Positions 57,802 to 64,000 of a DNA stretch of 64,000 nucleotides are shown one piece after another (position 1 is the stretch's first letter; every line of letters begins with the position of its first letter). The notes beneath the pieces are model-generated. The model saw only the letters and a list, made by a program, of their open reading frames with translations, was not told the DNA's origin and did not search any database. The DNA comes from Gammaproteobacteria bacterium (GTDB lineage Bacteria; Pseudomonadota; Gammaproteobacteria; Ga0077554; Ga007554): NCBI GenBank assembly GCA_040183005.1, contig JAMPIW010000005.1:1-64000 (forward strand), read 5' to 3'. The position numbers and the translations under genes are program-made.

Positions 57802-57963
57802 AAAAAATCTTTCCACAAAAAAATCGGATAGTACACCGGCCTGACCTTGTTTTCTACATATCAAAATCCGTGTCGAAATCTGCGATTAAAGTCACAGAAT
57901 CACGCGCCGATAACATATACGCAAGAGTTGCATGGACTTACCGACTATGAAGGAGACCAACCC

Positions 57964-58458
57964 ATGAATCAATTTATCGCCATCATTCTAGCTTCTGCCT
58001 TAACCCTATTTTCATGGGGAAATCTTGCTCGTGCTGCAGATAATAGCATTGAACTCAAGATGGTTGCTGAAAAGGAAGTAGAGACCGTCAACTCATCTGG
58101 AAAGAAGGAACTTAAACGTGTCGAGCCAGCGCTTGTCACGCCAGGTGAGGAAATAATTTACACCCTGTCTTACTCAAATACAGGCAAGGAAATCGCAAAA
58201 AATATTTTCATCACCAATCCCGTTCCACAACACATGGCATATAAGCCGAATAGCGCGGCGGGCGAAAGCACCGCCATTGTGTACTCCCTGGACGGTGGAA
58301 AAACCTTCGACAAACCTGAAAACCTGAAGGTGCGCACATCCGACGGTAAAGAAAGAGTTGCCATGGCGGCAAACTACAGCCACATACGCTGGATTATTCA
58401 AAAACCGCTGCCACCCGGAACAAAGGGTGACGTGAGTTTTCGCGCGCTATTGCAATAA
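57964..58458 (+). CDS. small secreted DUF11-domain protein
   Basis: The 164-residue protein starts at ATG 57964 after AAGGAGACC. A signal peptide ends ARA (about residue 23). One DUF11 domain follows: EEIIYTLSYSNTGKEIAKNI, then ITNPVPQHMAYKPNSAAGES and SHIRWIIQKPLPPGTKGDVS. DUF11 is an Ig-like beta-sandwich found in surface and extracellular proteins. It is the first of three secreted genes in a row. Confidence 0.85.
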   Translation: MNQFIAIILASALTLFSWGNLARAADNSIELKMVAEKEVETVNSSGKKELKRVEPALVTPGEEIIYTLSYSNTGKEIAKNIFITNPVPQHMAYKPNSAAGESTAIVYSLDGGKTFDKPENLKVRTSDGKERVAMAANYSHIRWIIQKPLPPGTKGDVSFRALLQ

Positions 58459-58484
58459 TAATTCGCTCAAGAGGATCCCCCCTC

Positions 58485-59660
58485 ATGTACTTAATAAAAA
58501 CCAACAAACATCTGCCTGGCCGCTCCCGGCATCCTGCCTCCCGCGACACTAGTACATCCCGGTACGTCGGACTGCTTTTATTCATCCTTTCGCTATTCGG
58601 CGTATCGCACTCGGCATTGGCAGCGGGTACTGTAGCGGGCACCAGTGTCAGCAATTCCGCCACAATTAATTACCAGGTCGGCGCGATCAGTCAGCCTGCG
58701 ATAACAAGCAACGCCGTTGCCTTCGTAGTTGACAAGAAGGTAAACATGACCGTTGTGACAACCGACGCCGCAGCAGTTTCAGTGACGCCCGGATCGAGCA
58801 ACAATATTGTCACCTTTACCGTGACCAACACCAGCAATGATACGATGGATTTTTCCTTAACCAGCCAGGCGCTGGTGGGTGGCACGGCGAAGTTTACCGG
58901 CACGGACAACATTAACGCATCGGCCGTTTCCGTGTTCGTTGAAAGCGGGGCCACGCCGGGATACCAATCCGCCCAAGATACTGCAACCTTTATCGACGAA
59001 CTGGCTGCCGATAGCAGTAAAACCGTTTACATCGTTGGCACTTTTCCCACCGGACTGAGCAATGGCGACATTGCGACCTATGGGATGATTGCCGAAGCAC
59101 GGGCCGCTGGTGGTGCAAGCAGCTTGGGCGCGGCACTTACCCAGGACACCGGGGCCGATAATCCGAGCACAGTACAAATCGTGTTTGGGGACGGCACAGG
59201 CACGGATGACGCCAGCCGCGATGCCAAACATTCGGATCGCAGCGATTTCAAGGTGGTCACCGCAACACTGGCTGTCACAAAATCGTCCTCGGTAATCAGT
59301 GATCCATTCAATAACACCACCAATCCCAAGGCGATACCCGGCGCGGTCATTGAATACACCATCACCATCACCAATGCAGCGAGTGCGGCAACAGCATCGA
59401 GCATCTCCGTTGCTGACAGCCTGAATTCAGAAATCACCGGTGGCAGACTGGCATTCAACACGACCACGTACGGCGCTACGCAGGGAATCCAGGTCACCGC
59501 GCCAAACATCAACGCAGGCGTCGCGACAGCGCTGACCAATGGCTCGGATGCGGATCAGGGCGATTTCAATGTTACGGCAGGCAATACGGTCACCGTCACT
59601 GGAATTTCACTCACAGGAGGTCAATCGGCCACCGTTAAGTTCAGGGTAACGGTTCAGTAA
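58485..59660 (+). CDS. secreted surface protein with DUF11-like beta-sandwich domains
   Basis: The 391-residue product has a long signal region ending HSALAA (about residue 47). TSVSNSATINYQVGAISQPA follows, then VTPGSSNNIVTFTVTNTSND and IPGAVIEYTITITNAASAAT, typical repeats of DUF11-type surface proteins. The final KFRVTVQ ends a domain without an anchor. It is Ala, Thr, Ser and Asn rich. The start at 58485 lies 26 nt after the preceding gene, with GAGGATC upstream. A hairpin at 59686-59710 follows. Probably a matrix or sheath protein; function unknown. Confidence 0.8.
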   Translation: MYLIKTNKHLPGRSRHPASRDTSTSRYVGLLLFILSLFGVSHSALAAGTVAGTSVSNSATINYQVGAISQPAITSNAVAFVVDKKVNMTVVTTDAAAVSVTPGSSNNIVTFTVTNTSNDTMDFSLTSQALVGGTAKFTGTDNINASAVSVFVESGATPGYQSAQDTATFIDELAADSSKTVYIVGTFPTGLSNGDIATYGMIAEARAAGGASSLGAALTQDTGADNPSTVQIVFGDGTGTDDASRDAKHSDRSDFKVVTATLAVTKSSSVISDPFNNTTNPKAIPGAVIEYTITITNAASAATASSISVADSLNSEITGGRLAFNTTTYGATQGIQVTAPNINAGVATALTNGSDADQGDFNVTAGNTVTVTGISLTGGQSATVKFRVTVQ

Positions 59661-59762: not shown

Positions 59763-62063
59763 ATGAAATTTTCCAGCGCATTAGACATTGCAAGATATTG
59801 CGCACAGGTCTTTCTGCGCCTGATCGTTGGCGTATTTCAGGTGCTCTTTACACTGACATTCAGCTTCCTTCTGTTGCCCTCCGTAGCATGGACAGCGACA
59901 CCCGCTGGCACCGTGATCAATAACAGAGCACAAGTAATCTATACGCTCGGGGGTATAGGCAGCGTCAGCACATCCTCCAATGTTGATCAATTCACTATCT
60001 CCGCATTAAACACGGGCGTTAACGCGACTCTTGGCATCGCCACACCATCAGGCGCATTTTCAGCTGGGAATTCGACCATTCTCAACATCACAATTACCAA
60101 CCCGTCCAGCAATCCACTGACAGGTGGACATCTGACATTTGCCACACCCGCGGGGTCCACCCTGCAATTATTATCCGGTGCAGGTGTTGTTTCATCAGGA
60201 AATGGATATTCCATCCCTGACATTATCGCCAACGGTTCGCTGGTACTATCCATCCGCTTGACTGTTCCCCTGACGCAACCTCCCGGAAACCTTGCGGTTC
60301 CGATCAGCTATCAGGCAACAGGTCTATCACCTGTGAGCAGCAATACATCATTAGCCATCAAGGCAAGAACCCGCTCAAAAATTGAATTTCTGCAATATGA
60401 TGCCACCGGAAATGCGCCGCCCACCCCTGTTGGAATCACGCAATTTGCAAACAGTAGCGGCGCCATCGAAGACATTCCCGCGCCCACGCTGCCAGGCGGT
60501 GGAAATATCCACGTTACAGATCAGGCCGTGTCGCTTATGCCAGCTAGTGGCTACCACAAGGGGCAGACAATTTTTATCAGGGTGAGCGACCCTGACCGCA
60601 ACGCCGATTCAAACACGGTGGAAACCATTGATGTGAATGTGACGGACATACAAATGGGGGACTCAGAAACCCTGAGGCTCAAAGAAACCGGGCCGGATAC
60701 TGGAATATTTACGGGTTATGTCGCGTCCACAACCGCACAGACCATCATGAATAATGGATCGCTGAGCGTCACAACAAATGACAAAATAACTATCCGCTAT
60801 GCCGACAACATTGACAACACCGATGCCGCGACGGTCTCTGTGCTGGTTGATCCCTATGGCGTGGTTTTTAACAGCAGCACCGGGCAACCGGTCAACGGCG
60901 TCGAAGTGCGCTTTATCAACAGTGATACCGGCCTGCCCGCCGTTGTATTTGGCGATGATGGCGTGAGTAGCTATCCTGCCACAGTGATTACCGGTGGGCA
61001 GGTTGCAGACAGCAGCGGCGCCGTCTATCAATTTCCGGCGGGAAGCTACCGGTTTCCACTTTCAACACCTGGGAATTACCGCCTGGAAGTAAAACTTCCC
61101 AATAGCTCCGGCTATACCTGGCCATCCAGCGCAGCAACCTCAGCCATCCAGTCATTGCCTGGTGCGCCATTTGCAATTGACATCGGTTCACGCAGCGAAG
61201 TCTTTTCTCTACAAGCCGGTCCGCCGTTACGCCTCGACCTGCCCATTGATCCTCTTCAAACACCGCTGTTTGTTCGCAAAGCGGCGAATAAAAGTCTGGT
61301 GGCAAACGGAGATTTTCTACAATACGGCATCGACATTGAAAACACCACCAGCCTTGTTTCGGTTCCCTCCGTAGAACTCGTCGATCTATTGCCGCATGGA
61401 TTCCGCTATCAGAGCGGTTCCACCAAAATAAATAACATCGCTGCTGCCGATCCTCTCATTCTTCCGGATGGACGGACACTCAAATTCATGCTCGGCGATC
61501 TGGCCCCGGGTACACGGGCAAATCTCAGTTATGTGGTTGAGGTGGCGGTTGCACCGCTTGGAAAATCCACGAACCAGGCCACCGCCCAGAGCAATGGCGT
61601 CAGCCGTTCAAATCTCGCCGAGGCGGCAGTGGACGTGCGTGAAGATCTGATGCGCAGCCGCAGCATACTCATGGGGCGCGTCATCGTTACCGAGCCGGGC
61701 GTCACTGTCACGGATGATGTAAAAAATAACAACGGCCTCGCTGGTGTGCGCATCTATCTGGAAGATGGCAGCTTTGCCGTCTCCGACAAACGCGGCATGT
61801 TCCATTTTGAAGGCATCAGGCCGGGCACGCATGTCGTGCAGCTGGATCTCGACACCGTTCCAGAAAAATACGAAGTCATTCCGTTTGAGGAGAACACCCG
61901 CTCTGCCGGGCGTGCCTGGTCAAAGTTTATTGATGTGCAAGGAGGAACGATGTGGCGTGTCGACTTTCATGTCGCCCTTAAACCGCGCCAAGAAGGCAAT
62001 GTCACCCTCAAGATGGACAGCACGCCGCATGAAGGCGAGCACATCCAGAGTTATAAATTAGAG
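59763..62063 (+). pseudogene. large surface protein gene interrupted by an IS66-type insertion (5' part)
   Basis: 767 codons are present before the insertion. The signal region ends VAWTA (about residue 45). Repeated beta-sandwich domains follow (VINNRAQVIYTLGGIGSVST; NSTILNITITNPSSNPLTGG). A segment with IFIRVSDPDRNADSNTVETI comes next, then a Cna/SdrB-like domain (GLAGVRIYLEDGSFAVSDKR). The uninterrupted gene would continue in frame at 63783, after removal of one target copy. The insertion converts the end to a short unrelated tail and stop at 62090. It is probably a very large cell-surface or fibre protein. Confidence 0.85.
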
Positions 62064-63774
62064 GTAACTACTCACCCCCGATTAAGTTGACCTCACCCGC
62101 GAGAGCCATTTGAATCGCAATAAGAGGATTATGTCCCTTGTTGGCCATAGTTTGCAGATAGCTTGATATTCGGCAATAAGCCTGAGCATAAATCTCTGAG
62201 CGGAAACAGCCTGAGACCTTTTGCTTCACCTTGGACATTCTCAAATCACGCTCGGCCCGATTATTGGTGAAGGAGACATGCGGGTTTTTGGCGAACAGCA
62301 GGACGGATGCCTCATGTTTTTGCAATCGCTCCAGCAGATTGTGCGCATCTGACTTGGCGAGTTTGCCGCGTTTGCCGCTGGGCTTTTGGGGAATAGGTGG
62401 AAGCTCTTTTTCGCCACGGGTGAGAATCGTGCGGTAGCGCTTTTGCAACCGCGCCAGCGCTTCATCGGTCAATCTCTTTTCCGTGCTTCTGGAGACGGTG
62501 GCGCAGCTCTCCTGTAAAAGGCGTTTCATGTGGCGCGCCCAGGCGTAGTCATTGGCGTCAACAATGAACGTCAATTCGCGCAGCAGATGCGAGCCGCACA
62601 GGCCGTGAGAGCAGTGATCATAGGACAAGTAGGATGACCAACAGTCATGGATAATGGCGCCACCGTAGCGCGGAATAATATCAATCGACGAAATCGCTGC
62701 CGTGCCCCGTTTTCGATGTAAAAACTTGAGGGTGATCTCCCCTGCGGAGTACACGTGTATCCAGTGGTTTTGCTTATCCACCCGCAAGGAGGTCTCATCC
62801 ACATGCATAGAGGGTGCTTTCAGCAGCTGTGCGGTGGCGTGCTGCTCCCACCGCTCCAAGGCACGATGAAGCCGCAGCACAAAAGCCAGAAGAGTGGCTT
62901 CAGAGATCACAACACCGATCATGGAGGTCAGCAGCGTTTGCGCGCGATTGATCGCGACCATCTGAGACACCAGTAAATTGATGACAAAGGCCTTTAAGCC
63001 ATCGCCGTATTGCAACGGGCCGTGCATATCCGCCGGGAACTTCCCTTTGACCGTCGCATCGCAGACCGGGCACTGCTTGACCTCGGCATCCACATGCTCA
63101 ACGACTTTCTCAAAAACAATATCGATCTTCGTCCGTCTTTCATGGTGACTACAGGGCGTATTATCCAGATCTTCGCCACATACATCGCAGAGGCGGACTC
63201 TAGAAAGAGTCACACTCTCTTTGACGCGCGTGTTTTTCAGCAGGGCGCCGTTTTCGTTTTTCCCCTTACCCTGGCTCCCCGGATGACTCAACGAGGAGTC
63301 GTCCTTTTCCGTTTGGGAGGAGGGCTTGCTGGAGTTGCGGCTGTCTTTCTTGGTTATTCTTTCCAGAAAAATGGAGAGCATCAGCTCCATCATCATGAAC
63401 ATGCTATTCATAAGCACCTGAGTTTCGCGAGGCACTTTACCGTCGCAACTGAGCTGCTCAAAATCCGCTTTCAACCGGCTGACTTCGTTTCTGACCGAGG
63501 TTTTGTCTAGGCTTGCCATTAATAAGGGGGGCTATACGTTTGGAATAGCCAAAGGATAACATGGCATTTTTCGACCCCCTGATAACGGTCAGATCAGGCT
63601 GAAATGGTTTTTTCGACTTGAAATGGCAAGGCGGCTCATTGAAGAGATCAAAGCCCCTGCCAGCGGCAATAGAGAATAGATTTTACACCGAGATAAGGAA
63701 GTGGTTTTTTCGATAGAAAAAACCTGTCAAGAGATTTTTAAGTTATTTTTCGTGTGAAGGGAGTGAGTAGTTAC
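62064..63774. mobile_element. IS66-family insertion sequence, 1711 bp
   Basis: The element starts GTAACTACTCACCCCC and ends GGGAGTGAGTAGTTAC, near-perfect inverted ends. AATTAGAG repeats directly on both sides (62056-62063 and 63775-63782), the 8-bp target duplication usual for the IS66 family. It carries a single transposase gene, as in the ISBst12-type members that lack tnpA and tnpB. Sharp ends and an intact gene point to a recent insertion. Confidence 0.92.
62068..63519 (-). CDS. IS66-family transposase (TnpC)
   Basis: The 483-residue protein has an N-terminal coiled coil and charged linker. A zinc-finger-like segment follows (LCDVCGEDLDNTPCSHHERR, KQCPVCDATVKG). The DDE core has Asp in SMHVDETSLRVDKQNHWIHV, Asp in AIIHDCWSSYLSYDHCSHGL and Glu in NNRAERDLRMSKVKQKVSGC. 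It looks complete. It is transcribed opposite to the gene it interrupts, and its stop is 4 nt inside the left end. Confidence 0.93.
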   Translation of the reverse strand: MASLDKTSVRNEVSRLKADFEQLSCDGKVPRETQVLMNSMFMMMELMLSIFLERITKKDSRNSSKPSSQTEKDDSSLSHPGSQGKGKNENGALLKNTRVKESVTLSRVRLCDVCGEDLDNTPCSHHERRTKIDIVFEKVVEHVDAEVKQCPVCDATVKGKFPADMHGPLQYGDGLKAFVINLLVSQMVAINRAQTLLTSMIGVVISEATLLAFVLRLHRALERWEQHATAQLLKAPSMHVDETSLRVDKQNHWIHVYSAGEITLKFLHRKRGTAAISSIDIIPRYGGAIIHDCWSSYLSYDHCSHGLCGSHLLRELTFIVDANDYAWARHMKRLLQESCATVSRSTEKRLTDEALARLQKRYRTILTRGEKELPPIPQKPSGKRGKLAKSDAHNLLERLQKHEASVLLFAKNPHVSFTNNRAERDLRMSKVKQKVSGCFRSEIYAQAYCRISSYLQTMANKGHNPLIAIQMALAGEVNLIGGE

Positions 63775-63782
63775 AATTAGAG

Positions 63783-64000
63783 TTTAAAAACAATGCGGTA
63801 CCGCTGCGCAATGCACGTTTGATGATTATGCTGCCGGAGGGTGCGACTTATGTGGATGGAAGCAGCTCACTGGATAACCGCTCCTTGCCTGACCCGGAAA
63901 TAATCAATGGCGCGCTGACCTATGCCCTGGATAACATTCCAGTGGACTGGCAGGCAACGATAGCCTTCAAGGCCGTGCTTGGCACCAGCACTGGCAACGC
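63783..64000 (+). pseudogene. surface protein gene, 3' part continuing beyond the window
   Basis: After the IS the original frame resumes FKNNAVPLRNARLMIMLPEG, then TYVDGSSSLDNRSLPDPEII. This is another DUF11-like domain that completes the domain begun at HIQSYKLE before the insertion. It has no stop codon up to the window end, so the intact protein would be well over 840 residues. Confidence 0.85.

Follow-up and report, generated by a model that had tools for sequence, protein, structure and literature searches.

The organization of the locus at the end of this stretch raises the question of whether an IS66-type element has simply and recently destroyed a large envelope protein gene, or whether the gene was already lost, can be restored, or persists as two separate genes. 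The window, by which we mean the whole 64-kb stretch of DNA that was analyzed, is the initial 64 kb of a contig of 123 kb and ends within the gene, and the remainder of the gene was read on in the contig past the window. A sequence-only reading of the window had described a recent IS66-type insertion, bounded by a repeat on both sides, in a surface protein gene whose flanks would rejoin in frame with no other damage, and had raised the prospect that a functional allele is still carried in, or regained by, part of the population.

Architecture of the insertion and the empty site

The interrupted gene is on the forward strand, with its 5' part (767 codons, with a homologue in G005, a genome from a different genus within the same family) at 59763..62063 and its 3' part (1,313 codons) running from 63783 to the end of the window at 64000 and on to 67724 beyond it. 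Between the two parts, at 62064..63774, lies a 1,711-bp IS66-family element with a single ORF and an ISBst12-like organization, placed on the reverse strand and thus antisense to the gene. Its left end is the 12-bp terminal inverted repeat GTAACTACTCAC (62064..62075) and its right end the terminal inverted repeat GTGAGTAGTTAC (63763..63774), and each is directly abutted by a perfect copy of the 8-bp target sequence AATTAGAG, at 62056..62063 on the left and 63775..63782 on the right. In the window sequence, the left junction reads ...AGTTATAAATTAGAG followed by GTAACTACTCAC and the right junction GTGAGTAGTTAC followed by AATTAGAGTTTAAAAAC. The probability that 8 bp would match precisely next to the two ends of an IS by chance is ~4^-8, and this duplication, together with flanks that continue one and the same homologue, rules out a chimera of the assembly.

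When the flanks were joined by script, with the IS and one target copy taken out, a single ORF of 2,080 aa resulted, in which SYKLE is followed by FKNNA in the same frame. Frameshifts past the window, which would have indicated a gene that was already dead, were looked for, and the 3' part is open as far as 67724 with no further stop or frameshift. The repeat on both sides, the in-frame rejoining and the lack of other damage thus stand as the sequence-only reading had described them. The present-day product of the 5' part consists of 767 native residues followed by 8 IS-encoded residues, for a total of 775 aa, its frame ending at 62090.

An ISBst12-type element in multiple copies

The assignment to IS66 is borne out by the 483-aa DDE transposase (tnpC type, 62068..63519, reverse strand), which matches PF03050 (2.7e-41, 142 bits, cut-off 23.1) and NF033517 of NCBIfam (2.2e-72, 244 bits, curated cut-off 180), by GTAACTACTCAC inverted repeats that start with GTAA at both ends, and by the 8-bp target duplication. 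Terminal repeats starting with GTAA are typical of the IS66 family. The transposase ORF takes up most of the element and is overlapped by the other listed internal ORFs; in the ORF list of the element, none is placed beside the transposase as tnpA or tnpB would be. The ISBst12 group is defined by a single transposase ORF and the absence of tnpA/tnpB (PMC12898284), and the anatomy of the element, judged from its sequence, corresponds to this group in its one ORF, its ends of the GTAACTACTCA type and its repeats of 8 bp. ISDge4, a member of the group, likewise has a single transposase ORF, encoding 449 aa as compared with 483 aa here, generates an 8-bp direct repeat, as here, and has ends, GTGACTACTCAGCA and GTAACTGCTCAGCA, that nearly match GTAACTACTCAC (PMC12898284). 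Transposition of ISDge4 was observed experimentally (PMC12898284), whereas that of the present element is deduced from sequence. ISBst12 itself (IS66 family, ISBst12-group type element; Egelseer et al. 2000, cited in PMC12898284) is described as inactivating a surface-layer gene. Both host and target differ from the present case, in which an OmpA-domain envelope protein, rather than an S-layer protein, was hit, and the likeness between the two elements is one of anatomy rather than of sequence-to-sequence comparison. Searches for the IS in plasmids gave no match, and searches for the transposase in viral contigs gave no relative.

The genome (G000) contains 13 full copies of the IS, 12 besides the one in the window, with 98-100% identity, and the same IS is found in two genomes of the same genus, G002 (97%) and G003 (81%). 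A single nucleotide separates the window copy from the copy at C9:95348, and 3 nt separate it from the copy at C7:1559387. Given this single-nucleotide difference and the perfection of both target repeats, the insertion is recent, in agreement with the sequence-only reading. Perfect 8-bp duplications directly flank 9 of the 13 copies, the window copy counted; in a tenth (C7:1628545), the 8-bp duplication CTTTATCG lies beyond an extra 154-bp end sequence, and the remaining three are without target duplications. At six sites, namely that of the window and five others, the frames are open to the IS on both sides and in the register predicted by the 8-bp duplication. That the gene parts are in frame is therefore nothing special, as target duplication produces this automatically in every clean insertion. 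The window insertion has several counterparts, likewise young and clean, in other genes disrupted by the same expanding element, and this element appears to be still active in this genome.

Several further features of these copies were observed. The additional 154 bp past the right end is shared by two copies, L014 (G000:C7:418045-419912) and L012 (G000:C7:1628392-1630257), and ends in a second, diverged right terminus (~71% similar, ...GAGTAGTTAC); the location of CTTTATCG outside this extra end is as if an extended unit of 1.87 kb had moved via an alternative end. In the copy at G000:C9:118524-120250, the transposase frame is broken into two pieces, so not all copies are autonomous. The genome is heavily loaded with IS66 elements in general; the IS66 transposase domain has 38 matches, which fall into two main lineages, this IS and a second one with ~13 complete copies. 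The same IS also interrupts GGDEF-EAL, EAL-HDOD and HAMP-containing sensor genes (G000:C2:414057-415767, C7:1628545 and C7:921590), all of them signalling genes. Two of the six interrupted genes (EAL-HDOD and GGDEF-EAL) are thus c-di-GMP genes, in a genome where GGDEF has ~30 matches, and a bias cannot be claimed from as few as six sites.

The interrupted envelope protein and its relatives

The product of the 5' part starts with a hydrophobic segment resembling a signal peptide and further contains a DUF11-type repeat (TIGR01451) and a CarboxypepD_reg/SdrD_B-like domain that is just at the Pfam threshold. The 3' part encodes an OmpA peptidoglycan-binding domain (PF00691, 8.1e-15; 6e-17 for the G005 homologue), after which, past linkers, comes a strand-rich C-terminal region of 815 aa. 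AlphaFold2 modelled this region with moderate confidence (mean pLDDT 62.7, pTM 0.52) as a meander of ~30 long strands, and the best Foldseek matches in the PDB, at low TM-scores (0.1-0.24), were mostly outer-membrane barrels, chiefly TonB-dependent (siderophore) receptors but also SlpA-type barrels, SprA, LptD and ushers. Judged by how its strands are arranged and by which kinds of protein it matches, rather than by superposition, the C-terminal region is likely to be a large outer-membrane barrel. The label of surface protein given in the sequence-only reading is a fair one, although it would probably be more accurate to speak of an outer-membrane protein that carries exported repeat domains. 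In this genome, neither the 5' part nor the barrel region has a second copy, the other matches being short ones to the OmpA domain only, and a search of the literature on DUF11/OmpA envelope proteins found no paper under the terms searched.

G005 carries an uninterrupted homologue with 69.8% identity over 1,889 residues, in an alignment that is gap-free across the insertion point; this homologue is cut by the start of its contig, placing the first ~200 residues outside the comparison. Homologues at a greater distance, in G050 and G001, are likewise encoded by one open frame of ~2,000 codons each, and in 41 of the 274 sampled genomes of the class the C-terminal region has relatives, mostly located within one long ORF. 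LIS44_16320, encoded on plasmid p4 of Acinetobacter haemolyticus (CP085288.1), also ends in a domain belonging to this family (27.9% identity); it is a large envelope protein (DUF11/OmpA-family) that, at ~2,000 aa, is similar in size to the protein studied here. Its gene is uninterrupted and, in the plasmid, is directly followed by a separate OmpA-family gene. Small DUF11/NEW3 genes before it and another DUF11 gene after it resemble the surroundings of the interrupted gene, which lies within a cluster of genes for DUF11-like exported proteins (165, 391 and 2,113 aa) located at 57961-59660 in the window and from 67766 onward. This likeness of the clusters suggests a conserved envelope locus. 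The 2,113-aa gene begins 41 bp downstream of the barrel gene, beyond the window, and is probably cotranscribed with the interrupted gene.

Fate of the interrupted gene

The explanation that we consider very probable is that an active multi-copy ISBst12-type IS66 element recently transposed into the middle of the gene for the 2,080-aa envelope protein, duplicating 8 bp. The possibility that the insertion acts as a reversible switch, in which the IS leaves precisely or the population is mixed, so that the intact allele persists or returns and the envelope protein is phase-variable, draws on the perfect target repeats and the undamaged 3' half, which would let a precise excision restore the frame. 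Restoration of the frame upon removal of the IS is, however, the automatic outcome of target duplication and for that reason adds no evidence of reversibility, and the same geometry at five unrelated sites of this IS indicates that it follows from recent transposition generally. ISDge4, the group relative, is moreover described as a copy-and-paste element (PMC12898284), which would give no regular excision, and the assembly shows the filled site. A switch of this kind, and with it the functional allele envisaged in the sequence-only reading, thus seems very unlikely.

Equally slim is the chance that the IS landed in a gene that was already non-functional. The 5' part has no match in G002 and G003, both of the same genus, and only a distant homologue in G001 (31%), which implies that the gene can be dispensed with on evolutionary time scales, and inactivating missense changes may be present. 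However, apart from the IS, the gene has 2,080 codons without a stop or frameshift, and dN against G005 is much below dS on both sides of the insertion (0.26 versus 1.99 and 0.18 versus 1.59 in the two parts, with dS near saturation). We give almost no credence to the idea that the halves are now separate functional genes, with expression of the 3' half beginning in the IS or at an internal start. In its favor, the frame of the 3' half is open and contains an in-frame TTG/ATG cluster at 63819-63830, but promoter-like sites on either strand of 62000-64000 numbered 0, with 1.7 expected, the 3' part encodes OmpA and barrel-like domains without an export signal, and too little time has passed since the insertion for selection to be visible. 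An IS-borne promoter driving the 3' half was also considered, and none was found in 62000-64000.

Under the preferred explanation of a recent transposition, the target was a chromosomal gene encoding an exported DUF11/CarboxypepD_reg N-terminal part, an OmpA domain and a C-terminal barrel-like domain, and transposition with 8-bp target duplication, which is evident from the sequence, divided this gene in two. The first product stops after its 767 native residues and lacks the OmpA and barrel portions, and the 3' portion has no signal sequence of its own; for these reasons we infer that the allele is null and that the envelope protein is most likely inactivated. The truncated, exported part of 767 residues could retain some function. 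Transcription of the 2,113-aa gene may also be reduced by polarity.

The event itself is an ordinary one and opens no new mechanism. For annotation, its value lies in the recognition of one interrupted gene rather than two genes, and the insertion also serves as a marker of the expansion of the IS. It also records how an apparently active IS has recently and cleanly knocked out an envelope protein that is conserved but has a patchy distribution.
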